Below are positions 1,587 through 57,418 of a DNA stretch of 62,453 nt, piece after piece (position 1 is the first letter of the stretch; each line of letters begins with the position of its first letter). Both the position numbers and the translations under genes were made by a program. The DNA is taken from positions 1 through 62,453 of the forward strand of contig JAUZRG010000003.1 in the NCBI GenBank assembly GCA_030950585.1, read 5' to 3'. A model generated the notes under the pieces. It saw only the letters and a list, made by a program, of their open reading frames with translations, had not been told where the DNA came from and did no database searches. The stretch is from Mariprofundaceae bacterium (GTDB lineage Bacteria > Pseudomonadota > Zetaproteobacteria > Mariprofundales > Mariprofundaceae).

Positions 1587-3752
1587 TTAAACCTCTTCGG
1601 CACCTTCATTCCAAGCTAAGATAAGGCGAAAGGCTTCGTTGCTGATGTCAATGTCTAAATCCTTTTTAACCTCAGTTAAAGAGGAGCAAGGATCGGCGTC
1701 GGCAAGTGCTTTCATCACGTATTTAAAAGTCTCTTCACCAACAATGCTGCTAACATCAATTTCATTGCCAGCACGAACTAAGGCAATGAAATGTTGCATC
1801 AGGGTTTTTTCACTTAAACCTTGGGCAATGAGATCTTCAATGGAAGCTCCTTTCTTATACAGCGTCCAAGTATGTTGTTGGGCAGCTGTGGGAGATGGAC
1901 CTTTGGGAACAAGCTTGATGACTTTCTCAATTTTAGGCACAATGATTTCAGGAAAGCGCTTCACATGTTCTTGTAAAACATGAATAAAGTCAGGGCCATA
2001 GGTGCTTAACTTATGACTACCGACACCACTCACTTTTGAAAAAGCTTCTTCTGTAATAGGACGCGTTAAACTCATTTCGCCTAAGGCAACATCACTAAAA
2101 ATAGTATGTGGAGAAATATCTAGTTTGTCGGATAGTTGGTAACGCAAAACATCGAGAAGGGCGAAGACATCATCATTGCGTTTGCGCGATGGTTTTTTAA
2201 TGCCGTGACGTACACCTGGTTTGTATTTTGCAAAAGTAACTTTTGCAGATCCCTTAAGTAATTTTTGACCTTTGGGTGTCATTTTAAGCGCACCATGTTG
2301 ACTCACATCTTGCGTGAGGTCGCCATGATGAACAAGTTGGCGCAGAATGGATGTCCATTCATCTAGGCCAAGGTGTTTACCAACACCATACATCTTAAGT
2401 TTAGCATGCTCATTGGTGCGAATACGTGCGGTGTCGGCACCACGTAAAATATCCACAATATAACCCATGCCGAATTGTTCACCAGCAGTTTTAACCGCAC
2501 GTAGACTTTGTTGAGCATATTTAGTGGCATCAAATGTTTCTGGTGGATCAAGGCAAATATCACAGTTGCCACAGTCATGCTCTAGTCTTTCACCAAAATA
2601 GCTCAGCAACACACGACGACGGCAAGTTAAGGCTTCGGCAAAACCAATCATACTATTTAGTTTGTGAACTTCGATGCGTCGTTGATCAAGGCTTTCAACA
2701 TTTTCGATTAATTTGCGCACCAAGTTGGTATCACCAGCACCATAAAGCAACAGAACTTCAGCTTCTAAACTATCACGACCGGCACGGCCTGTTTCTTGAT
2801 AATAACTTTCAATGCTCTTAGGGATATCATGATGAATAACAAAGCGAACATTGGGTTTATCCACACCCATGCCAAAGGCAACGGTGGCAACAATGATGCG
2901 AATGCGATCACGAAGAAAGTCATCTTGAACTTTTTCACGTTGTTTGGCAGGTAAACCCGCATGGTAAGCGGCTGCTTTGAGGTGATGCCGTTGTAAATTG
3001 ACAGTGACTTCTTCTACACGTTTACGTGATAAACAATAAATGATGCCTGAAGAGTCTTTCCAGTCACGAATAAACTCAACGATTTGTTTCATGGGTTGAC
3101 GTTTAGGCGCGACAAGGTAACGGATGTTTGGGCGATCAAAACTTGAGACATAGCGGCGTGCGTTATGTAGACCTAGGCATTCAATAATATCTTCACGGGT
3201 GTGGGTGTCTGCGGTGGCTGTGAGTGCAACCATAGGTACTTTTGGAAAGTTTTTCCGTAGTTGGCCTAGTCGTACATATTCTGGGCGGAAGTCATGACCC
3301 CATTGAGAAACACAATGCGCTTCATCAATGGCAAAAAGAACAATTTTAACTTTTCTCAAACGTCCCATAAATTCTTGAGATAACAAACGTTCGGGTGCAA
3401 TATAGAGAAGGTCTAATTTTCCTTTCTCAAAGTTTTGTAAGACTTTACGTGATTCAGCCGCTTTTAGTGATGAATTATAAAACGCGGCACTGACACCACA
3501 TACCTGAAGGGCATCAACTTGATCTTTCATGAGTGAAATGAGAGGTGAAACCACAATACCTGTACCATTTCTGATCATTGCAGGTATTTGATAACAAAGT
3601 GATTTTCCGCCCCCTGTAGGCATTAAAACAAAGGTATCTTTGGCCTGACAGATCGATGTGATAATTTCGCCTTGCTGGTTACGAAATTGGTCATAGCCAA
3701 AAACTTCTTTGAGCATGGCGAGGGATTGTTTTGCAAACTGGTCTTTGGTCAT
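1587..3752 (-). CDS. recQ: ATP-dependent DNA helicase RecQ
   Basis: 3'-5' superfamily 2 helicase for recombination repair. Walker A is PTGGGKS with Lys50, the DEAH box is at 143-146 followed by the RecQ-specific [13 protein letters not shown], and motif VI is [10 protein letters not shown] zinc-binding RQC region shows CRRR plus CGNCDIC. An HRDC domain follows (about residues 515-595, [12 protein letters not shown]), then a winged/HTH tail of the type often fused to RecQ. The length of 721 aa is somewhat above the roughly 610 aa of E. coli RecQ because of that C-terminal extension. It is divergent from hemD across 102 nt. Confidence 0.95.
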
Positions 3753-39147: not shown

Positions 39148-39792
39148 ATGAAAAAACACCCTACAATTCCCGACATGATGGCGAAGAATACCGAAGATAC
39201 CCCTGACCTTACCCTAAGAGATCTTGAGAAATTTCTCACTAGGGAATCGCCACGAACAAAAAACAGAAGAGAAAAATCAAAAGTTAGGCCTCTGAAAAAA
39301 AAGAGTCCAGAACCTGAAGAGTTGGCTGAAAAAAAAGGTCTAGGTCAACAACAACTTCAAAAAGATTTTCCTGCAACAAAAGACTTAAAGGCTCACCATC
39401 CCAATCCAAGTGTCGTGATCAAAAGTGATTTCCCTATTGATGAAACGGCCAATGCTAGCCCTGTTTTTAATAAAGTACCTGCCAGTCTTGCAGCGAAACG
39501 ATCAGTCAAAACTGAACCTCAAAAAGTTCAAGCTAAAGTTCAAGCCAAAGCGAAGCCAAATCCTAGCATTCGTTTGCTCACACCTGATATGGTGATTGAA
39601 AAACCAAAAGACACATGGTGTGAAAAGTTGTCGCTGCTTCATTTAGAAAAAGAAGAAATTCGTCTACTCATGAAAGAAGTAAAAAAAGATGTGATCAATC
39701 AATTACCCACAACGGTTCCTGAGTTGGTTGAAATGTTTTTAAATCGGCGGATTGATAGTATTCTACAACGTAAAACCTTTAAAGATTCCTAA
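39148..39792 (+). CDS. Low-complexity protein upstream of valS, PopZ-like candidate
   Basis: 214 aa from ATG 39148; a TTG at 39118 and ATGs at 39175 and 39178 are alternatives, and none has a clear ribosome site. A short helix (PDLTLRDLEKFLTRES) is followed by about 110 residues of disordered, Lys/Pro/Gln-rich sequence with an imperfect VQAKVQAKAK repeat. The end is a helical domain (EEIRLLMKEVKK, then LPTTVPELVEMFLNRRID). Layout and the LP..VPELVE..L.RRI pattern recall the C-terminal oligomerisation helices of PopZ/DUF2497. In alphaproteobacteria, PopZ/DUF2497 genes commonly lie next to valS, as here. Against this, the linker is basic rather than acidic and the N-terminal motif is not the classical one. 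A guess from architecture and synteny. Confidence 0.4.
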   Translation: MKKHPTIPDMMAKNTEDTPDLTLRDLEKFLTRESPRTKNRREKSKVRPLKKKSPEPEELAEKKGLGQQQLQKDFPATKDLKAHHPNPSVVIKSDFPIDETANASPVFNKVPASLAAKRSVKTEPQKVQAKVQAKAKPNPSIRLLTPDMVIEKPKDTWCEKLSLLHLEKEEIRLLMKEVKKDVINQLPTTVPELVEMFLNRRIDSILQRKTFKDS

Positions 39793-39821: not shown

Positions 39822-42482
39822 ATGACTATGACAGACCCATGTCTGGCGAAAGCCTATGAACCTTCAAGTATTGAAAAAAAAGTAAATGAGCAATGGCTCA
39901 CGTCAGATGCCTTTAAAGCTAAAAAAGCAGATGAACGTTATTGCATCGTCATTCCACCGCCAAATGTGACAGGTCGTTTGCATATGGGGCATGCGTTTTC
40001 TTATACCCTGCAAGATATTTTAATCCGTTGGCAACGTTTGCACGGCAAACAAGTATTGTGGCAACCGGGCACTGATCATGCAGGTATTGCGACCCAAATG
40101 GTGGTTGAGCGTCTTTTGGATAAAGAAGGCAAAAAACGCCGTGACATGACACGTGAAGCGTTTCTTGAACGTGTGTGGCAATGGAAAGAAGAGTCAGGCG
40201 GAACCATTGTATCTCAGCTTAAACGCCTTGGTGCATCCTGTGATTGGTCGCGTGAGCGGTTTACGTTGGACGAAGGTTTGTCTGACGCTGTGGGCGATGT
40301 GTTTGTGCGTCTGTATAAAGAAGGCTTGATTTATCGCGGTAAACGCCTTGTGAATTGGGATCCAGTTTTAGAAACAGCTGTGTCTGATTTAGAAGTGGAG
40401 CACGTCGAAGAACAAGGACACTTTTGGCATATTCGCTACCCCTTAGCGGATAACCCAAGCGAGTCTGTGATTGTGGCAACCACACGCCCTGAAACCATGC
40501 TGGGTGATGCTGCTGTTGCTGTTCATCCCAGTGATGAACGCTTTAAACATTTGATTGGTCAAGAGGTGTTGCTGCCATTAACAGATCGCCGCATTCCGAT
40601 TATTGCCGATCATTATGTGGATATCGAGCTTGGCACAGGTTGCTTGAAAATCACGCCTGCGCATGATTTTAACGATTATGAAGTGGGCAAACGTCATGAT
40701 TTACCACAAATCAATATTTTAAATAACCAAGCTCATCTACTCAGTGATGATTTTATCCCTGAGAAATACCGTGGTATGGAACGCTATGAAGCGCGTGAAC
40801 ATATCGTGGCTGATTTGGATGCGGCTGGTTTGTTGTATCGTGTGGAAGAGCATGTGCATCAAGTGGGGCGTGGGGATCGTTCTCATGCTGTGTTAGAACC
40901 TTATTTAACCGATCAATGGTATGTGGCCATTCAAGAATTGGCTGATCCTGCGATGGCGGCAGTGAAAGAAGGCGAGACTCGCTTTGTACCTGCGCATTGG
41001 GAAAAAACCTATTTTGACTGGATGAACAACATCCAAGACTGGTGTATCTCACGTCAATTGTGGTGGGGACATCGCATCCCAGCATGGTTTTGCAACGATT
41101 GTGATCACATCACCGTGAGCAAAGACACGCCAGCATGTTGTGGTGGTTGTTCTGGCCACAATATTCATCAAGATGAAGATGTGCTTGATACTTGGTTTTC
41201 TTCAGCACTTTGGCCTTTCTCAACCTTGGGTTGGCCTGCAAACACGCAAGAGTTGGAAGACTTTTATTCCACCAATGTGTTGGTGACTGGTTTTGATATT
41301 ATCTTCTTCTGGGTTGCCCGCATGATGATGATGGGCTTGAAGTTTACCGATAAGGTGCCTTTTAAAGATGTGTATATTCACGCTTTGATTCGTGATGCGA
41401 ACGGCCAAAAAATGTCTAAATCGAAGGGGAATGTGATTGATCCTCTTGAGATGGTGGATGAGTTTGGTGCCGATGCCTTGCGTTTTACCCTGACCCATAT
41501 GGCAACCCCCGGTCGTGATGTGAAGCTGGATGCGGATCGCATCAAAACGAATCGCAATTTCATGAATAAGATTTGGAATGCAGCACGTTTTGTATTTATG
41601 AACCGTGCCGATGCCAAACCTGATGCCAGTCTTCAAGCTAAAAATGATGTGAACCGCTGGATTTTGCATGAACTTCAAACGTGTGCAGAGCAAGTTGAAG
41701 CTGCGTTGAAAGCGTATCGTTTTAATGATGCCGCTGAAACACTGTATCACTTTATCTGGGGAACTTACTGCGATTGGTATGTTGAAGCTGCCAAAGTTAG
41801 CCTGTATGGTGACGATGAAGCCGATAAATCCGAAACGCAAATTACCATGCTGACTGCATTGGATGCATGGTTAAAACTTCTCCATCCTATTTGCCCGTTT
41901 ATCTCCGAAGCGATTTGGCAAGAACTGCATGGCGATGAAGCAAGGTTGATTACACACCAATCCTTCTTACCTGACTTTAAGCAAGACCAAAGCAGTCAAG
42001 CGGCTCTTGAGTGCATGAACTTGGTCATGGATGTGGTCAAATCCGTGCGTTCGATTCGTGGTGAAATGAATGTGAATCCAGGTAAGCGGATTCAAGCTGC
42101 TATTGCTTGTGATACTGTGACACGCAGCAAGCTTGAAAGCCAACAAAAGCTGATTTGTAATCTTGCTAAAATTGATGATCTACAGTGGCTAAATCAAGAT
42201 GAACGTCTTGAAGATGCTGCGATGAGCACCTTGGCATTTGCGAATATCTTTTTGCCATTGGCTGGTTTGATCAATGTTGAAGAAGAACTCCAACGTTTGG
42301 CTAAAAAACAAGTCAAACATAAGAAAGAAGTTGAAATGCTTGAGAAAAAACTAGCGAACCCTCGTTTTAGCCAAAATGCCCCTGAGGCTGTGGTGGCTAA
42401 AACACAAGGTGACCTTGATGAGCATCTTCGCCAATTAGAAGAAATCTTTGCAGCCGTCGAACGTCTGGAAAGATTAAAGTAA
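39822..42482 (+). CDS. valS: Valyl-tRNA synthetase
   Basis: Class I synthetase charging tRNA-Val. HMGH (54-57) replaces HIGH, and KMSKS is at 530-534. The editing domain lies between them, and a C-terminal coiled coil (about 820-885, EEELQRLAKKQVKHKKEVEM) binds tRNA. 886 aa, normal for the short bacterial type. It begins 30 nt after the PopZ-like candidate, so the two are probably co-transcribed. Confidence 0.97.
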   Translation: MTMTDPCLAKAYEPSSIEKKVNEQWLTSDAFKAKKADERYCIVIPPPNVTGRLHMGHAFSYTLQDILIRWQRLHGKQVLWQPGTDHAGIATQMVVERLLDKEGKKRRDMTREAFLERVWQWKEESGGTIVSQLKRLGASCDWSRERFTLDEGLSDAVGDVFVRLYKEGLIYRGKRLVNWDPVLETAVSDLEVEHVEEQGHFWHIRYPLADNPSESVIVATTRPETMLGDAAVAVHPSDERFKHLIGQEVLLPLTDRRIPIIADHYVDIELGTGCLKITPAHDFNDYEVGKRHDLPQINILNNQAHLLSDDFIPEKYRGMERYEAREHIVADLDAAGLLYRVEEHVHQVGRGDRSHAVLEPYLTDQWYVAIQELADPAMAAVKEGETRFVPAHWEKTYFDWMNNIQDWCISRQLWWGHRIPAWFCNDCDHITVSKDTPACCGGCSGHNIHQDEDVLDTWFSSALWPFSTLGWPANTQELEDFYSTNVLVTGFDIIFFWVARMMMMGLKFTDKVPFKDVYIHALIRDANGQKMSKSKGNVIDPLEMVDEFGADALRFTLTHMATPGRDVKLDADRIKTNRNFMNKIWNAARFVFMNRADAKPDASLQAKNDVNRWILHELQTCAEQVEAALKAYRFNDAAETLYHFIWGTYCDWYVEAAKVSLYGDDEADKSETQITMLTALDAWLKLLHPICPFISEAIWQELHGDEARLITHQSFLPDFKQDQSSQAALECMNLVMDVVKSVRSIRGEMNVNPGKRIQAAIACDTVTRSKLESQQKLICNLAKIDDLQWLNQDERLEDAAMSTLAFANIFLPLAGLINVEEELQRLAKKQVKHKKEVEMLEKKLANPRFSQNAPEAVVAKTQGDLDEHLRQLEEIFAAVERLERLK

Positions 42483-42792: not shown

Positions 42793-44118
42793 ATGTCTGT
42801 TTCAATTCAAGAGTACCTTCGCCGCGCACCTGCCACTTCAAAAGAAATTCAACTTGCCACATCTCAAAATCAAGCGGCGGTATCGCGACAACTGCGTGCG
42901 ATGGCCGATAGCGTGATTAAAATACCTAATGGGCGTTCGCCTTTGTATGCCTTGGCCTGTAATGCTTTTGGGGGCGGGGATCGGTTTAGCATTTTTATGG
43001 TTGATGCTCAGGGAACCCCAAGCCCTGTCGCCTATTTGCGCCCCTTGGCACATGGTGGTTTTTTTATTGAAGCTTTCACAGGAATCCCTTCAGTTTTAAT
43101 GGGGGATAGTAAAAATGGTCTTTTTGATGATTTACCTTATTTTTTAGAGGATTTAAGGCCGCAAGGTTTTTTAGGTCGGAAAATAGCAGCCAACCTTGCA
43201 GGCCAAGATACGCACCTTCCTCATGACCCAAAGCGTTGGAGCAAAGACCAGCTTGGTCGTTATTTGGTGGCCAATGGTGATGACTTTGATTTTTCGGGGA
43301 ACCTTGTTTTTTCATTACAAGGTTGTTTACGTATCAGGCGATGCATCGAAAAGCATGGTGAAGATGACTATTCTCAGTTGGCTGAGCAGGTGCTCGGTGA
43401 TGATAGTTACGGTTCATCGGCAGGGGGTGAGCAGCCCAAGTTCACAACATTTTGCCGTGAGCGACAAAGGCATGTCATCGTCAAATTCTCACCCAAGGGC
43501 GAAAGTGATGTGGCACGACGTTGGCGTGATATGCTGATTACGGAGCATTATGCAACAGAGGCTTTGCATGTCTGTCATACCCCCGCAGCAGAGACCAAGC
43601 TCATTGAAAAAGGTGGGCGTTTGTTCTTGGAATCCATCCGTTTTGATCGCAGTGGTGAGTATGGACGCTTGGCCATGCTCTCGCTTCAGGTCGTGGATGC
43701 TGAGTTTGTGGGTGATGGGCAAAGCTGGCCATCTATCGCTGAAGCCATGTTGAAAATGGAATTAATGGGTTCCTTGGACGATTTTTTTATTCGGTTGCTA
43801 TGGTGTTTTGGGCGCATGATTCACAACACAGATATGCACACAGGTAATTTGAGTTTGTCGATTGAAGGGGACTGTTTCAAATTATTACCGATATACGATA
43901 TGTGCTCAATGGGCTTTGCACCCAAATCAGGTGAGGTGTTGGCTTATGATTTTGTGGCTCCCAAGTTAGACGATTTGAGCTTGGAAGAGCATGAATGTTT
44001 GGTCCTACTGAAAGCGACGCAGTTTTTCTGGGAAAGTATTTCATTGGAAGCGTTGGCTTCGGATGAGCTTAGAGCGTTTGCATTGAGCCAATTGCAAGGT
44101 GTTGAGAATGAAAAATAA
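42793..44118 (+). CDS. HipA-family toxin kinase with fused N-terminal HTH (HipH/YjjJ-like)
   Basis: Residues 1-55 form a winged-helix/HTH (SIQEYLRRAPATSKEIQLAT then QAAVSRQLRAM), as in E. coli YjjJ. The rest is the HipA Ser/Thr kinase fold: glycine loop SSAGGEQPKFTTF, VIVKFSP lysine, catalytic loop HNTDMHTGNLSL and metal-binding Asp in LPIYDMCSM. HipA phosphorylates glutamyl-tRNA synthetase; the YjjJ target is less clear. No HipB antitoxin is adjacent, which fits a solo toxin carrying its own DNA-binding domain. 441 aa. The promoter holds paired CTAGTCA repeats. A class II aldolase gene follows 14 nt later. Confidence 0.88.
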   Translation: MSVSIQEYLRRAPATSKEIQLATSQNQAAVSRQLRAMADSVIKIPNGRSPLYALACNAFGGGDRFSIFMVDAQGTPSPVAYLRPLAHGGFFIEAFTGIPSVLMGDSKNGLFDDLPYFLEDLRPQGFLGRKIAANLAGQDTHLPHDPKRWSKDQLGRYLVANGDDFDFSGNLVFSLQGCLRIRRCIEKHGEDDYSQLAEQVLGDDSYGSSAGGEQPKFTTFCRERQRHVIVKFSPKGESDVARRWRDMLITEHYATEALHVCHTPAAETKLIEKGGRLFLESIRFDRSGEYGRLAMLSLQVVDAEFVGDGQSWPSIAEAMLKMELMGSLDDFFIRLLWCFGRMIHNTDMHTGNLSLSIEGDCFKLLPIYDMCSMGFAPKSGEVLAYDFVAPKLDDLSLEEHECLVLLKATQFFWESISLEALASDELRAFALSQLQGVENEK

Positions 44119-48327: not shown

Positions 48328-51281
<2,954 letters not shown>

Positions 51282-51292
<11 letters not shown>

Positions 51293-54200
51293 TGCTCCTA
51301 TCGCCATTGTTGGCATGTCTTGTTTATTTCCTGGTTCTGAAAATGCGACCAGTTATTGGGCGAATATTCGTGAAGGTGTTGATGGCATTAGCGATATTCC
51401 TGAGACGCACTGGCGACCCGAAGACTATTTTTCTTCTGACCCCAAAAAACCTGATCATACCTATGCTAAACGTGGCGGCTTTATTCCTGTGGTTGAATTT
51501 GATCCGCTAGCCTTTGGTGTCTTACCCAATGCTTTAGAAGCAACGGATACATCTCAGCTTTTGGGGATGTATGTGGCTGCCCAAGCCTTGCGTGATGCGG
51601 GTTATGGTGAAGACAATGATTTTAACCGTGAAGCGGTGAGTGTTATTCTTGGTATCACGGGTGCTTTAGAGTTGGTGGTGAGTTTGGGCGCGCGTTTGGG
51701 TCATCCGCATTGGAAAAAAGCCTTGCATGATGCGGGTGTCGATGATGAGACCGCCGCAGATGTGGTTCAGCGCATTGGTGATGCTTACCCAGAATGGCAG
51801 GAAAATTCCTTTCCGGGTTTGCTTGGCAATGTGGTCGCAGGTCGGATTAGCAAGCATTTGAATTTGGGTGGCACAAACTGTGTGGTGGATGCTGCATGTG
51901 CCAGTTCGATGAGTGCGATGGAAATGGCCATGTTGGAATTGCAAGCAGGTAAAAGCAATATGGTGGTGTGTGGGGGTGCTGATACCTTCAATGATATTTT
52001 TATGTATATGTGCTTTAGTAAAACACCTGCATTATCACCCACAGGCGAAGTTCGCCCCTTTGATCAAGATGGCGATGGTACGATGTTGGGTGAAGGCCTT
52101 GGCATTGTGATCTTAAAACGCCTTGATGATGCCGTACGTGATGGCGATAAGGTGTATGCTATTGTGCGTGGAATTGGTTCATCAAGTGATGGCAAAGGCG
52201 GTGCAGTCTATGAGCCTAGCAGTGCGGGTCAGAAAAAAGCCGTACAGCGTGCTTATGAGCAAGCAGGCGTTGAGCCTAAAGATATTGATTTATTAGAAGC
52301 ACACGGCACAGGCACCAAAGTGGGTGATGGCGTTGAACTGCGCGCCCTGCATGAGGTGTATGGTCAAGCCGATGCAGCATGGTGTGCATTGGGATCTGTT
52401 AAATCTCAAATAGGTCATACCAAAGCTGCCGCAGGTGTGGCGGGTGTGATTAAAGCTGCGCTATCATTGTATTTTAGAACCTTACCGCCTTCGATTAAGA
52501 CACGTACACCTTTGCCTGCCTTACAGGCACAAGATACGCCTTTTTATTTGAACCGTCGTATGCGGCCGTGGCTGAAGGAAAAAGGTCGCCCACGTTTGAG
52601 TGCGGTGAGTGCTTTTGGTTTTGGTGGTAGTAATTTTCATATGGTTTTAGAGGAGCATGCCCCAACGCAACCTGATGTTGCTTGGGATGCAGAATTGGAA
52701 CTACTGTTGCTTTCAGGTGCCAATACAGCGACTTTAAGTCAGCAGCTACAAGCTTTAGAGCAGTGCGAGCAGTGGTTTGACGCTGTGGCCTTATTGCGAC
52801 AGTGGCGGCAAGATTTTGATGCAACACATGCGGTGCGTTTGGGTGCCTTGTGGTCTAAAACTGAACATAGCCCTCAACGTGTGGCTGATGTGCTTGCAGC
52901 ACTACAGAAACAACAAAGCATGCCCAAGGGTGTGTTTCTTTCCACCACCGCTAAGGCAGGCAAGTTAGCCTTTTTGTTTCCAGGCCAAGGCTCACAATAC
53001 ACCCAAATGTTATTGGATATGGCGTGTCGCTTTCCCAAAGCATTTGATATTTTGGCTGAAATGGATGCCCAAGCCAATCAGTCCATTAGCAATAAACTTT
53101 ATCCCAACAATCACTTTATCGACCAAAGCGCACAAGAAGAGGCTTTGCGTCAAACGGATGTGGCTCAGCCTGCATTGGGCGCGGTGAGTGCAAGTATGTT
53201 GGCCGTGTTGGACATTTTTAACCTGAAAGCCGACATGATGGCAGGCCATAGTTATGGTGAATTGGTCGCGCTCTATGCAGCGTCTTGTTTATCCCAAGAG
53301 GATTTTTGCCGCTTATCGGTGTTGCGTGGTGAACTAATGGCTTCTGTGCCAACTTTAGGTGGGATGTTGGCGGTGCGGGTAAGCCAAGAAAGGCTGCAAA
53401 CCTTATTGATTCAGCATAATTTAGATTTGGTCATTGCCAATCGCAATGCACCGCAGCAAATGATTGTTTCGGGTGCAACGGCTGAAATTGAAAAAGCGGC
53501 ATTGCTTTGTCAGCAAGTTGGTTTAAGTGCTGTGTCTTTACCTGTGTCTTCAGCCTTTCATTCACCCATGATGAGGGAAGCGGCCAATGCTTTTGCCGCT
53601 GCATTAGATGAAACGGTTTTTCAGCAAGAAACATGCCCAGTATATGCCAACATTCATGGTGATCCTTATCCCCAAGATGGCGCAGGTGTGCGCAATATTT
53701 TAGCGCAACAACTGGTCAATCCAGTGAAGTTTATGCAGCAAATTCAACGCATGCATGATGCTGGCGCACGTACCTTTGTTGAAGTGGGACCAAAGCAAGT
53801 TTTATCGGGTCTGGTGACACAAATCTTAGGGGATCAAGTCCAGTGTTTAGCCTTGGATTTAGGTGTTGATCAACCCGCTATGCAGGCTTTGGGTTCTGTC
53901 TTGGTACAGCTCAGTGTGGCGGGTTATAGTGTTGATCTATCGGCATGGAATCATGGTGTTGTTATCGCACCTGTCGAGAAAAAACGCATGCGTGTCAATG
54001 TGAATGGTGCCAATCATCTTGCCAAACGCCCTCAACGCCCTGTGCGTGCTAAAAAAGTTATGAAAGAAAACGTGATTGAGAAAGTGATCGAAAAAGTCAT
54101 TGAAAAAGTAGTTGTGAAACAAAATAAGCCAGAAATAAGGAAGAAGCCTGTGGCGAAGACCCCTCCAACCGTCTCACCTGATGTGATGATGCAAGCCTTA

Positions 54201-55223
54201 CAAAACACACAAGATAGCATTGGTGCATTGCAACGTATGCAAGAACATACGGCTCATCTCCATCAACAGTTTATGCAAAATCAACAATTGGCTAGCCAAC
54301 AACTCCAGCAGTTGTTGCAACAGCAATCAGCGATGCTACATGGTCAGCCTTTGCCCAGTTTAGCCAGCAATGTTTTGATGCAAGAAGCACCTGTCTTGCC
54401 AAGTATTCAGCCCATGCCAGAACCTGTGATGCCCATGCCTGCACCACCCGTGCAACAGCCTGTGATGCCTATACCTGAAGTTCCTGCCGTGCCTGAGGTT
54501 CCTGTTGTTCCCGTAGCTCCAGTGGTTCAACAAGTTGCGCCTGTACCCGTTGCTGCACCAGTCGCAGCACCAGCCCCAGTCGTTGCAGCCCCCCCAGCCC
54601 CTGTGGCCGTTGCAAAACCTGCTGTTGTGGCCACACCTGAACCTCAGGTCGCACCTGTGCAAGCAGGTTCAGTGATTGAAGATGTGTTGTTGCAAACCAT
54701 TGCTGAAAAAACAGGTTACCCTGTGGACATGTTAGAAATGACTATGAGCCTTGATGCTGATTTGGGTATTGATTCGATTAAGCGGGTAGAAATCCTTTCA
54801 GCCCTGCAAGAAGCTTTACCAGAAGCGCCCATGATTGAAGCCTCTCATTTGGGAACCTTGCATTCATTGGCTGATATTGCAGGCCATTTGGCGGGTTCAA
54901 GCGCAGCACCTGTGGCAGCTGTCAGTGCAGCTCCGACAGTGGTGGTCGCAGAAGTGGCCAGTCCAGTTGTGGACAACAAGATCGAAGACGTGTTGTTGCA
55001 AACCATTGCTGATAAAACGGGTTACCCTGTCGATATGTTGGAAATGCAAATGAGTCTTGATGCTGATTTGGGCATTGATTCTATTAAACGTGTGGAAATT
55101 CTTTCTGCATTGCAAGAAGCCTTGCCTCAATCGCCTGTGATTGAAGCCTCTCATTTGGGAACCTTGCATTCATTGGCTGATATTGCGGGTCATTTGCAAG
55201 GTAACACACAAAAAAAAAACTAA
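51282..55223 (+). CDS. pfaA: PfaA-like synthase, N-terminal part: KS-AT-ACP-ACP
   Basis: Iterative type I PUFA/polyketide-type synthase. Ketosynthase at 1-450: Cys206 in DAACASS, EAHGTGT, GHTKAAAG. Acyltransferase at about 560-860: LFPGQGSQ and Ser657 in GHSYGE. Then a Lys/Glu-rich IEKVIEKV stretch, a Gln-rich coiled coil and a Pro/Ala/Val-rich linker (about 930-1125). Two ACPs follow with pantetheine serines 1165 and 1267 in LGIDSIKRV, 102 residues apart. Start ATG 51282 follows GAGG; 1313 aa. The frame stops at 55221 just after a ten-A run, while the KR and DH domains that complete PfaA continue in the -1 frame. Apo-ACPs need a phosphopantetheinyl transferase from elsewhere. Confidence 0.93.
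54675..55196 (+). repeat. Tandem ACP-coding direct repeat (306-nt period)
   Basis: The ACP coding units starting at 54675 and 54981 are almost the same in protein (IEDVLLQTIA.KTGYPVDMLE) and very close in DNA, with about 87 nt of Ala/Val-rich linker between. This indicates a recent duplication or gene conversion within the synthase. Confidence 0.85.
55210..55219 (+). promoter_or_regulatory. Ten-A run with slippery heptamer A AAA AAC at the ACP/KR boundary
   Basis: Read in the KS-AT-ACP frame the run is C-AAA-AAA-AAA-AC, ending in the heptamer A AAA AAC (55214-55220) and an in-frame TAA at 55221. The -1 frame from here runs without a stop into the KR-DH gene. Both ribosomal -1 slippage and RNA-polymerase slippage are known on such runs. 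Confidence 0.6.
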
Positions 55224-55242
55224 TACGACTTCCGCTTTCTCT

Positions 55243-55277
55243 TAGGCAGCTAGATGCGAGTATGCAGCAGCTGCCTA
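55243..55277 (+). promoter_or_regulatory. 9-bp stem-loop downstream of the slippery run, covering the KR-DH start
   Basis: TAGGCAGCT (55243-55251) pairs perfectly with AGCTGCCTA (55269-55277) around a 17-nt loop that contains ATG 55262. It begins 22 nt after the slippery heptamer, longer than the usual 5-9 nt for frameshift stimulators. It would place the only nearby ATG in a loop and the weak ribosome-site-like TAGG in the stem. Confidence 0.55.
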
Positions 55278-57418
55278 TTCCAAAGGGAAACATTTATATC
55301 AATAGCTGTTCAAGCTTGACTGAGCGTTTGCAAATGCAATGGGCTTTGGCGGGTTATGATGTCATTTTAATCGACCTAGAGGCACTGCCAGAAGCATTGG
55401 ATGCTGGCGTGCTGTTGTTGATGAGTCCGCTTAATTATTGCGATGACACCTTTTTACTTCAGGCTTTTGCATGCTTGCAATGGGCTGCCACAAGTTTACG
55501 CCAGAATCGTGGTTGGTTTGTGACCATGAGTGTGCAAGATGGTCAGTTTGGCTTTAATAATAGTCGTCAGCCTTTGGCCGCTGGCTTGGCTGGTTTAAGT
55601 AAAACTGTCAGCCATGAGTGGCCAGAAGTGCGTTGTCGTGCCATTGATATCAGTGCGGATGTTGAAATGCCGCTGTTGTTGCAGGAAATTTTTGCAGATG
55701 ATGCCTTGATAGAAGTGAGCTTGCATCAAGGTCAGCGTTATCAACCAATATTAAAGTTTGAAGCCACGCAAGCACGCCCACAAGTCCTGCATGCACCTTT
55801 AAAACAAGGTGATGTGGTGCTGGTCTCAGGTGGTGCACGTGGTGTCACGGCACAGGTGTGCAAAGCCTTGGCCGCAGCCTATCAGCCTCAGTTGGTGTTG
55901 TTGGGTCGTAGTCCGATATCGGATGTTTTAGATGATTGGCCTATGGATAAATTGGCGTTAAAACAAGCGATCATGCAAGACGCAAGAGATCAAGGGCAGA
56001 AAATATCCCCCCGTGACCTCACAAAAACAGTGGATGCTATTTTAAATCAACGTCAAATGCAGCAAAATATGCATGCGATGCGCCAAGTAGGTGCGAGCGT
56101 GACTTATTTACAAGTGGATATGTGCGATGAAAAAGCCGTCATTGAAATGGTGCGTGATGTGCGCCATCGCTGGGGAACGATTTCAGGTGTGGTGCATGGT
56201 GCGGGTGTGTTGGCAGACCGTTTGATTGAGGATAAGACCGCCGAACAATTTCAACGTGTTTACAATACCAAAGTCCAAGGTTTGCGTTCATTCTTGGATG
56301 CGACCATTGCCGATGATTTAAAGGTCTTGGTGTTGTTCTCATCATCCACAGCTCGTTTCGGGCGTAAAGGTCAAATTGACTATGCTGTGGCCAATGAAGT
56401 GATGAATAAAATGGGGCAGCAATACCAACAGAGACACCATGATTGTCGGGTGGTTTCTGTGAATTGGGGGCCGTGGGATGGTGGTATGGTCACACCTGCC
56501 TTGAAAGAGCTTTTTGCAAGCGAGGGCATTGGGGTGATTGATCAACAAGCGGGTGCTGATTATTTGGTGAATGAATTGCAATGCCAAGGCCAAACAGAAG
56601 TGGTGATTTTGGGCAAACGTGAAGAAAGTATTCGCCAACAGATCGACCTTTCGATTGAAAGTCACCCCTTTTTAACTTCACATCAAATCAATGGTCATGC
56701 TGTGTTGCCTATGGCGATCATGCTTGAATGGTTTGTGGCCATTGCTGGGCGTGCGAGTGTGTATTTAGATGTTTGTGTGGTGAAAAACTTTCAAGTGCTT
56801 AAAGGAGTCACCTTAGTGGCAGGTGAGCATATAGCTTTAGAGATTAAAGCCACAGGTTCAGAGATGACGTTAAAATTAGAAATGCATAGTGCCAAAGGTT
56901 TGCACGTGCGTGCAGATGTGCTTTTAGGTTCGTATCGGACTAAAAATGCCATGTTGGAGCTTCAGCATCTCACCAGCATGAGTCATGACCCTTATGCTAA
57001 AAAAGAATTGTTTCATGGCCAATGCTTTGCCGTCTTGGATCAAGTTGAGTTGGGTGAAAGCGGTGCGATCGCGCTACTGAATCCACAAGACTTACCTTGT
57101 GACTGGATGCAAGACTGTGTGAGCAACCGTTGGCAAACATCACCGCTGGCTGTGGATGCCGCCTTTCAAATGGCCATTCTCTGGTGCTGGCAACAATATG
57201 GCATGCCTTCATTGCCTTCATCCTTCACCCATTACGAACAATTTAAAGCATTCCCCCAACAGCTTGAAGTACGCTTGCAAGTGGTGTCACATCAAGCCAA
57301 TCAAATGACGGCCAACATTGAGTTTGTCGATATGGATGGTGGCTTGATTGCCCGCATGGAAGGCTATGTTTGCACCATGAGCGAAGGTTTGAAAAAGGTG
57401 TTTTTGCAGGAGTCTTAA
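55262..57418 (+). CDS. PfaA-like synthase, C-terminal part: ketoreductase-dehydratase
   Basis: Ketoreductase at about 170-400: LVSGGARGVTAQV NADPH loop; FSSSTARFGRKGQIDYAVAN with Tyr374. Dehydratase hot-dog region at about 470-640: His474 in HQINGHAVLP (HxxxGxxxxP) and Asp632 in VDAAFQ (DxxxQ). Both catalytic sets look intact. The first ATG, 55262, has no good ribosome site and lies in the loop of a 9-bp hairpin. The frame is open upstream to the ten-A run, and the extra codons (RLPLSLRQLDA) read like real inter-domain sequence. These are the missing last domains of PfaA. 718 aa as written, about 732 if reached by frameshift. Confidence 0.88.
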   Translation: MQQLPIPKGNIYINSCSSLTERLQMQWALAGYDVILIDLEALPEALDAGVLLLMSPLNYCDDTFLLQAFACLQWAATSLRQNRGWFVTMSVQDGQFGFNNSRQPLAAGLAGLSKTVSHEWPEVRCRAIDISADVEMPLLLQEIFADDALIEVSLHQGQRYQPILKFEATQARPQVLHAPLKQGDVVLVSGGARGVTAQVCKALAAAYQPQLVLLGRSPISDVLDDWPMDKLALKQAIMQDARDQGQKISPRDLTKTVDAILNQRQMQQNMHAMRQVGASVTYLQVDMCDEKAVIEMVRDVRHRWGTISGVVHGAGVLADRLIEDKTAEQFQRVYNTKVQGLRSFLDATIADDLKVLVLFSSSTARFGRKGQIDYAVANEVMNKMGQQYQQRHHDCRVVSVNWGPWDGGMVTPALKELFASEGIGVIDQQAGADYLVNELQCQGQTEVVILGKREESIRQQIDLSIESHPFLTSHQINGHAVLPMAIMLEWFVAIAGRASVYLDVCVVKNFQVLKGVTLVAGEHIALEIKATGSEMTLKLEMHSAKGLHVRADVLLGSYRTKNAMLELQHLTSMSHDPYAKKELFHGQCFAVLDQVELGESGAIALLNPQDLPCDWMQDCVSNRWQTSPLAVDAAFQMAILWCWQQYGMPSLPSSFTHYEQFKAFPQQLEVRLQVVSHQANQMTANIEFVDMDGGLIARMEGYVCTMSEGLKKVFLQES

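Follow-up and report, generated by a model that had tools for sequence, protein, structure and literature searches.

We analyzed a 62,453-nucleotide stretch of a Mariprofundaceae bacterium genome (assembly GCA_030950585.1, contig JAUZRG010000003.1, positions 1 to 62,453; hereafter, the window), in which a short open reading frame (ORF) stands directly upstream of valS, the gene for valyl-tRNA synthetase (ValS). This gene probably belongs to the PopZ-like scaffold family as its valS-linked representative in Zetaproteobacteria, and its product is best regarded as a divergent family member with inverted charge, because it fails several of the defining features of PopZ; sequence comparison marks it as a fast-evolving PopZ relative. 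Alphaproteobacterial PopZ likewise adjoins valS (PMC6414705) and comprises an N-terminal region, an intrinsically disordered region, and a helical oligomerization domain (PMC9512792). The position next to valS (gap of 29 nt), the helical start, disordered middle and C-terminal helix, and the LP..VPELVE..L.RRI stretch (residues 186–203) were all features of the original prediction of a PopZ-like protein, and a single-sequence AlphaFold2 (AF2) model places helices at residues 23–31, 157–178, and 189–210 with disorder in between, albeit at low confidence (mean predicted local distance difference test score, 54). The window ValS is 68–70% identical to records from named Mariprofundus and uncultured Zetaproteobacteria and branches with them inside a fully supported clade of the ValS tree, and the source genome is thus zetaproteobacterial.

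Genomes of the same family encode acidic proteins of 132–542 aa directly upstream of valS, and the same-locus comparison that had been proposed earlier accordingly yielded PopZ-like proteins at this slot. Their N-terminus is of the PopZ type (DIDEILASLDQLLRE; general form (D/S/N)I(D/E)(E/D)ILxS(L/I)DxLL), a central motif reads R(V/I)(V/L)LTEDM(M/L)V (for example, VVLTEDMMVE), and the C-terminus is a helix with LPxLI; this three-part layout is present in the relatives whose valS slot was read. PAP2 and holC-like genes stand 5′ of several of these family genes. A profile built from 13 zetaproteobacterial proteins (the zeta profile) found matches in 30 of the 78 genomes and 10 of the 18 genera of the order. 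None of the 78 genomes reached the cut-off of PF10691 (best E = 0.011), which indicates that the curated models are blind to the zetaproteobacterial family. A PF10691 match in the window genome itself (C4) proved to be a 38-aa frame with two stops and was discarded as noise, and no second PopZ-like match was found in that genome.

Its locus, its central motif, and its match to the C-terminal profile mark the window gene as the local ortholog of this family. The family hidden Markov model (HMM) matched residues 165–205 of the window protein with 22.0 bits (E = 8.7e-9 for one comparison), ranking it first among the 399 window ORFs (runner-up, 4.0 bits); 2,000 shuffles of its own sequence reached at most 10.1 bits, and leave-one-out profiles recovered it in every build (17.7–26.5 bits). 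The central motif IRLLTPDMVIEKPK scored 14.4 bits with a zetaproteobacterial position-specific scoring matrix (PSSM), a value equalled by 0.2% of shuffles, and the alphaproteobacterial PSSM placed the motif at the same site (p = 0.08). The window protein combines three features of the family, namely the HMM match, the central VLTEDMMVE motif, and the valS slot. An unrelated basic, disordered protein could occupy the slot and match the zeta profile at its C-terminus by chance, as might be suspected from its mostly low-complexity sequence and from the lack of a direct match to PopZ models; we regard this as improbable, given that the protein outranks every other window ORF, that none of the composition-matched shuffles came close, and that the central motif is matched separately, in the correct order and at the expected locus.

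The zetaproteobacterial family as a whole is homologous to alphaproteobacterial PopZ, with the window protein connected to PopZ through intermediates. In a blind test that covered 80 valS loci of named genomes (6,209 ORFs), alphaproteobacterial PopZs took the highest ranks with the zeta HMM (best E = 2.1e-10), and 18 of the 20 best matches of this model were the ORF immediately 5′ of valS, mostly PopZ (hypergeometric P = 9e-26). Conversely, 12 of 13 zetaproteobacterial proteins had residue 6 or 10 as the site of the best match to an alphaproteobacterial N-terminal PSSM, and most of the zetaproteobacterial relatives carry a client-binding motif of the P[ST]MEEILASIRRI type. At two Hyphomicrobium loci, valS is preceded by a tandem pair of PopZ-type ORFs, of which one is classical (SMEEILASIRKII) and the other divergent (DVEDILASIRTSI).

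A third lineage, probably Magnetococcia and separate from both alpha- and zetaproteobacteria in the ValS tree, bridges the zetaproteobacterial family and alphaproteobacterial PopZ, as judged from profile–profile comparisons. Its valS slot is occupied by acidic proteins of about 480–990 aa, unannotated, with very long acidic linkers and with GPSMEEILASLEEILDEA and LPELLEKIIREEVERVRR. Compared using hhalign, their C-terminus matched that of alphaproteobacterial PopZ with a probability of 96.9% (E = 1.6e-10; best column-shuffled value, 0.019) and that of the zetaproteobacterial family with a probability of 68% (E = 4.8e-5; best column-shuffled value, 0.11). Because the zeta profile picks out PopZ and the third lineage bridges both groups, the PopZ-like identity that had been predicted holds for the family, which is thus present beside valS in Zetaproteobacteria, beyond the alphaproteobacteria; the window protein itself matches no DUF2497/PopZ profile and lacks both the client-binding motif and the acidic linker. 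What it shares with PopZ is valS directly downstream, the succession of N-terminal helix, disordered linker, and predicted C-terminal helices, a central LT..M motif, and a C-terminus that is homologous by way of the zetaproteobacterial and third-lineage intermediates.

Several results weigh against placing the window protein in this family. The profile comparison with PF10691/PopZ that had been suggested gave no direct match, neither to PF10691/DUF2497 nor to NF052660 PopZ_fam in Pfam and NCBIfam scans, leaving the protein below all curated cut-offs. A profile built from all lineages except the zetaproteobacterial one also failed to detect it, so that it connects to PopZ transitively only; at the C-terminus, the direct profile comparison was significant with the zetaproteobacterial family and not with alphaproteobacterial PopZ. 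The N-terminal motif DIDEILASLDQLL was not recognized by PSSM (0.4, 0.8, and 6.3 at residues 22–32 with the zetaproteobacterial, alphaproteobacterial, and third-lineage matrices, respectively; not above shuffles), confirming the predicted divergence of this region, and neither was the P[ST]MEEILASIRRI client-binding motif: the EILASIRRII signature of PopZ is gone, as is the EWLDEN segment of the PopZ C-terminal core. The linker is disordered yet basic, again as predicted, whereas that of PopZ is acidic and proline-rich. The isoelectric point of the whole protein is 9.73, compared to 4.05–6.14 in all 54 other family members compared, and the linker net charge per residue is +0.11 (residues 26–154; 12% Pro in the linker) versus −0.01 to −0.55 in relatives. 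Finally, the valS slot held no family gene in genera g9 and g10 and in family f3 (at least 1 genome read in each), with PilZ and DUF2461-like genes there instead in g9, and MipZ had no match in the window genome and only weak, partial matches in 10 of the 78 genomes of the order.

The N-terminal helix retains its hydrophobic pattern despite the divergence of the motif, which is also weak in the zetaproteobacterial relative G035, the only true, albeit weak, ortholog retrieved from relatives by a single-protein search with the window protein. The whole-genome search with the zeta profile overlooked the window gene itself, so the absence of the family from other zetaproteobacterial genera may in part be a detection failure. 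The loss of the N-terminal motif, the flipped linker composition, and the genera devoid of such a gene at the valS slot could also mean that the scaffold is being lost here and that the window gene is a relict, recognizable at its C-terminus but no longer doing the job of PopZ. We consider this rather unlikely, because the 214-codon frame is intact and because retention of the central motif and C-terminal helices amid change elsewhere is unlike neutral decay.

As a divergent PopZ-like scaffold, the window protein may work as follows. By analogy with PopZ, the two C-terminal helices would mediate self-association into higher-order assemblies, with the long disordered linker acting as a spacer between them and setting the fluidity of the assembly, and client proteins would dock on the N-terminal helix and central motif, as they do with PopZ at the pole. 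In Caulobacter, condensation of PopZ is driven by the C-terminal helices, whereas the fluidity of the condensate is maintained by the negative charge of the linker, removal of the acidic residues resulting in lower mobility (PMC9512792). The zetaproteobacterial proteins should, accordingly with that precedent, be self-assembling scaffolds; for the window protein, self-assembly, polar position, and clients are inferred from the same analogy. In this lineage, an acidic linker has given way to a basic one, and the helix on which clients would dock has diverged; therefore, both clients and assembly properties should differ, and the variant may form an assembly of a different material state with other clients. 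It may possibly bind DNA, RNA, or acidic surfaces directly. ParB is present in the window genome and is a possible ancestral client.

The zeta C-terminal profile also retrieved the gene 5′ of valS in Desulfobacterota. The Geobacter-type valS neighbor consists of a receiver domain, a disordered linker, and a C-terminal I(A/V)WEVVPDLAExIIREEIRK segment; the Pfam receiver domain was matched in three such proteins (E = 4e-18 to 4e-22), the fourth being incomplete at its start. This C-terminus matched that of the third lineage with a probability of 97% (E = 9.4e-11; best control values, 0.013 in 100 column shuffles and 0.016 among 66 ValS-window controls), and each of nine Desulfuromonadia genomes has exactly one copy of the domain, adjoining valS in five of them. 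RomR, a polarity response regulator of Myxococcus and other bacteria that is also present in Geobacter, has been described as a receiver domain followed by an unconserved linker and the alpha-helical, Glu-rich RomR-C with invariant Trp and Pro; RomR-C showed no homology to known domains and alone suffices for polar targeting (Keilberg et al. 2012, PMC3441718). Since the Geobacter-type protein fits this published description, we infer that it is RomR. In other Desulfobacterota, acidic receiver-less proteins at the valS slot also matched the module (93.5%, E = 2.4e-7); one of them (L100) has a weak DUF2497 match (E = 0.003), and two contain the PopZ-like V(I/V)(D/E)LTDMVE motif.

These comparisons suggest a common origin of PopZ and RomR in an ancient scaffold domain encoded at one locus. 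We lean slightly towards the view that the PopZ C-terminal oligomerization domain and RomR-C, considered unique to RomR in 2012, are one ancient domain, and that a valS-linked scaffold predating the split of Alphaproteobacteria, Zetaproteobacteria, the probable Magnetococcia, and Desulfobacterota gave rise to PopZ in one branch and RomR in another, the window lineage having rebuilt it with a basic linker. RomR resembles the window protein and its relatives in its unconserved disordered linker, in the C-terminal helical module related to that of the third-lineage PopZ-like proteins, and in the frequent position of the Geobacter-type copy next to valS. It differs in that the window protein has no Response_reg domain (Pfam scan) and has Pro but no Trp where the Geobacter-type copies have WEVVP. 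RomR-C is modeled by AF2 as one long helix, a result that speaks neither for nor against the helix-turn-helix of PopZ. PDB sequence searches returned nothing for the window protein and nothing useful for the RomR-C segment. The constant neighborhood would also be explained if the protein aided ValS or the metabolism of tRNA instead of polarity, and both the valS adjacency maintained across several lineages and the basic charge of the window protein would fit such a role. This explanation is highly improbable in our judgement: the studied relatives, PopZ and RomR, act in polarity, and the gene for the domain lies away from valS in 4 of the 9 Desulfuromonadia genomes.

Features of the window locus and related proteins at valS loci of other genomes
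Feature	Location	Strand	Remarks
Candidate PopZ-like protein gene	39148..39792	+	214 aa from ATG 39148; TTG 39118 or ATG 39175/39178 also possible (start codon uncertain)
Short N-terminal helix, residues 22–32 (LTLRDLEKFLT)	39211..39243	+	AF2 helix 23–31; relatives: DIDEILASLDQLL
Disordered basic linker, residues 35–140	39250..39567	+	No structure in AF2 model; all relatives acidic
Central motif, residues 141–154 (IRLLTPDMVIEKPK)	39568..39609	+	Zeta PSSM; compare RVVLTEDMMVENPQ of relatives and VLELTEDM of PopZ
First C-terminal helix, residues 157–178	39616..39681	+	AF2; within/overlapping zeta HMM match 165–205
Last helix, residues 189–210 (TVPELVEMFLNRRIDSILQRKT)	39712..39777	+	AF2, C-terminal alignment, zeta HMM; PopZ counterpart LP.LVE.LVR.EIER
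valS, conserved neighbor	39822..42482	+	Pfam tRNA-synt_1, 1e-148
Hyphomicrobium tandem PopZ-type ORFs	L081:171-1811 and 2002-2865; L090:183-1817 and 2005-2877		
Unannotated PopZ-like proteins, third lineage	L216:3724-5823; L225:1898-3361; L223:1081-3303; L222:2460-3896; L218; L220		Upstream of valS
Geobacter-type valS-adjacent proteins	L069:1361-2707; L074:1461-2894; L063:923-2845; L067:2-847		C-terminus WEVVPDLAE..IREEIRK; L067 incomplete at start
Acidic receiver-less proteins, other Desulfobacterota	L092:704-1537; L100:2195-2872; L108:872-1582; L120:651-1487; L132:1560-2867; L134:93-2039		Upstream of valS

The literature searched treats PopZ as an alphaproteobacterial hub; in the open-licence literature of PubMed Central, we found no paper that describes relatives of PopZ from Zetaproteobacteria or Magnetococcia or that relates PopZ to RomR. 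An unannotated PopZ family in Zetaproteobacteria and a further lineage would make the scaffold much older, and the window variant is a natural experiment on the features that PopZ can do without, such as the acidic linker and N-terminal helix. Should RomR-C indeed be the same domain, two separately studied polarity systems would have one origin, and the PopZ-based POLAR assay, in which RomR has served as bait (PMC11025332), would need a control for direct domain–domain contact.

In the window, surA, hslU, and hslV lie on the minus strand, followed by the 214-aa ORF and valS on the plus strand. Downstream of valS (42793–44118) is an ORF for a HipA-like kinase (Pfam HipA_C, 4e-18); the N-terminus of this protein weakly matches an arsR-type helix-turn-helix, and no hipB is evident next to the ORF. 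Further along (49667–57418), inspection by eye pointed to large genes resembling polyketide or polyunsaturated fatty acid synthases, with ketosynthase–acyltransferase–carrier repeats followed by a ketoreductase-like region and with a PfaD-like ORF alongside.
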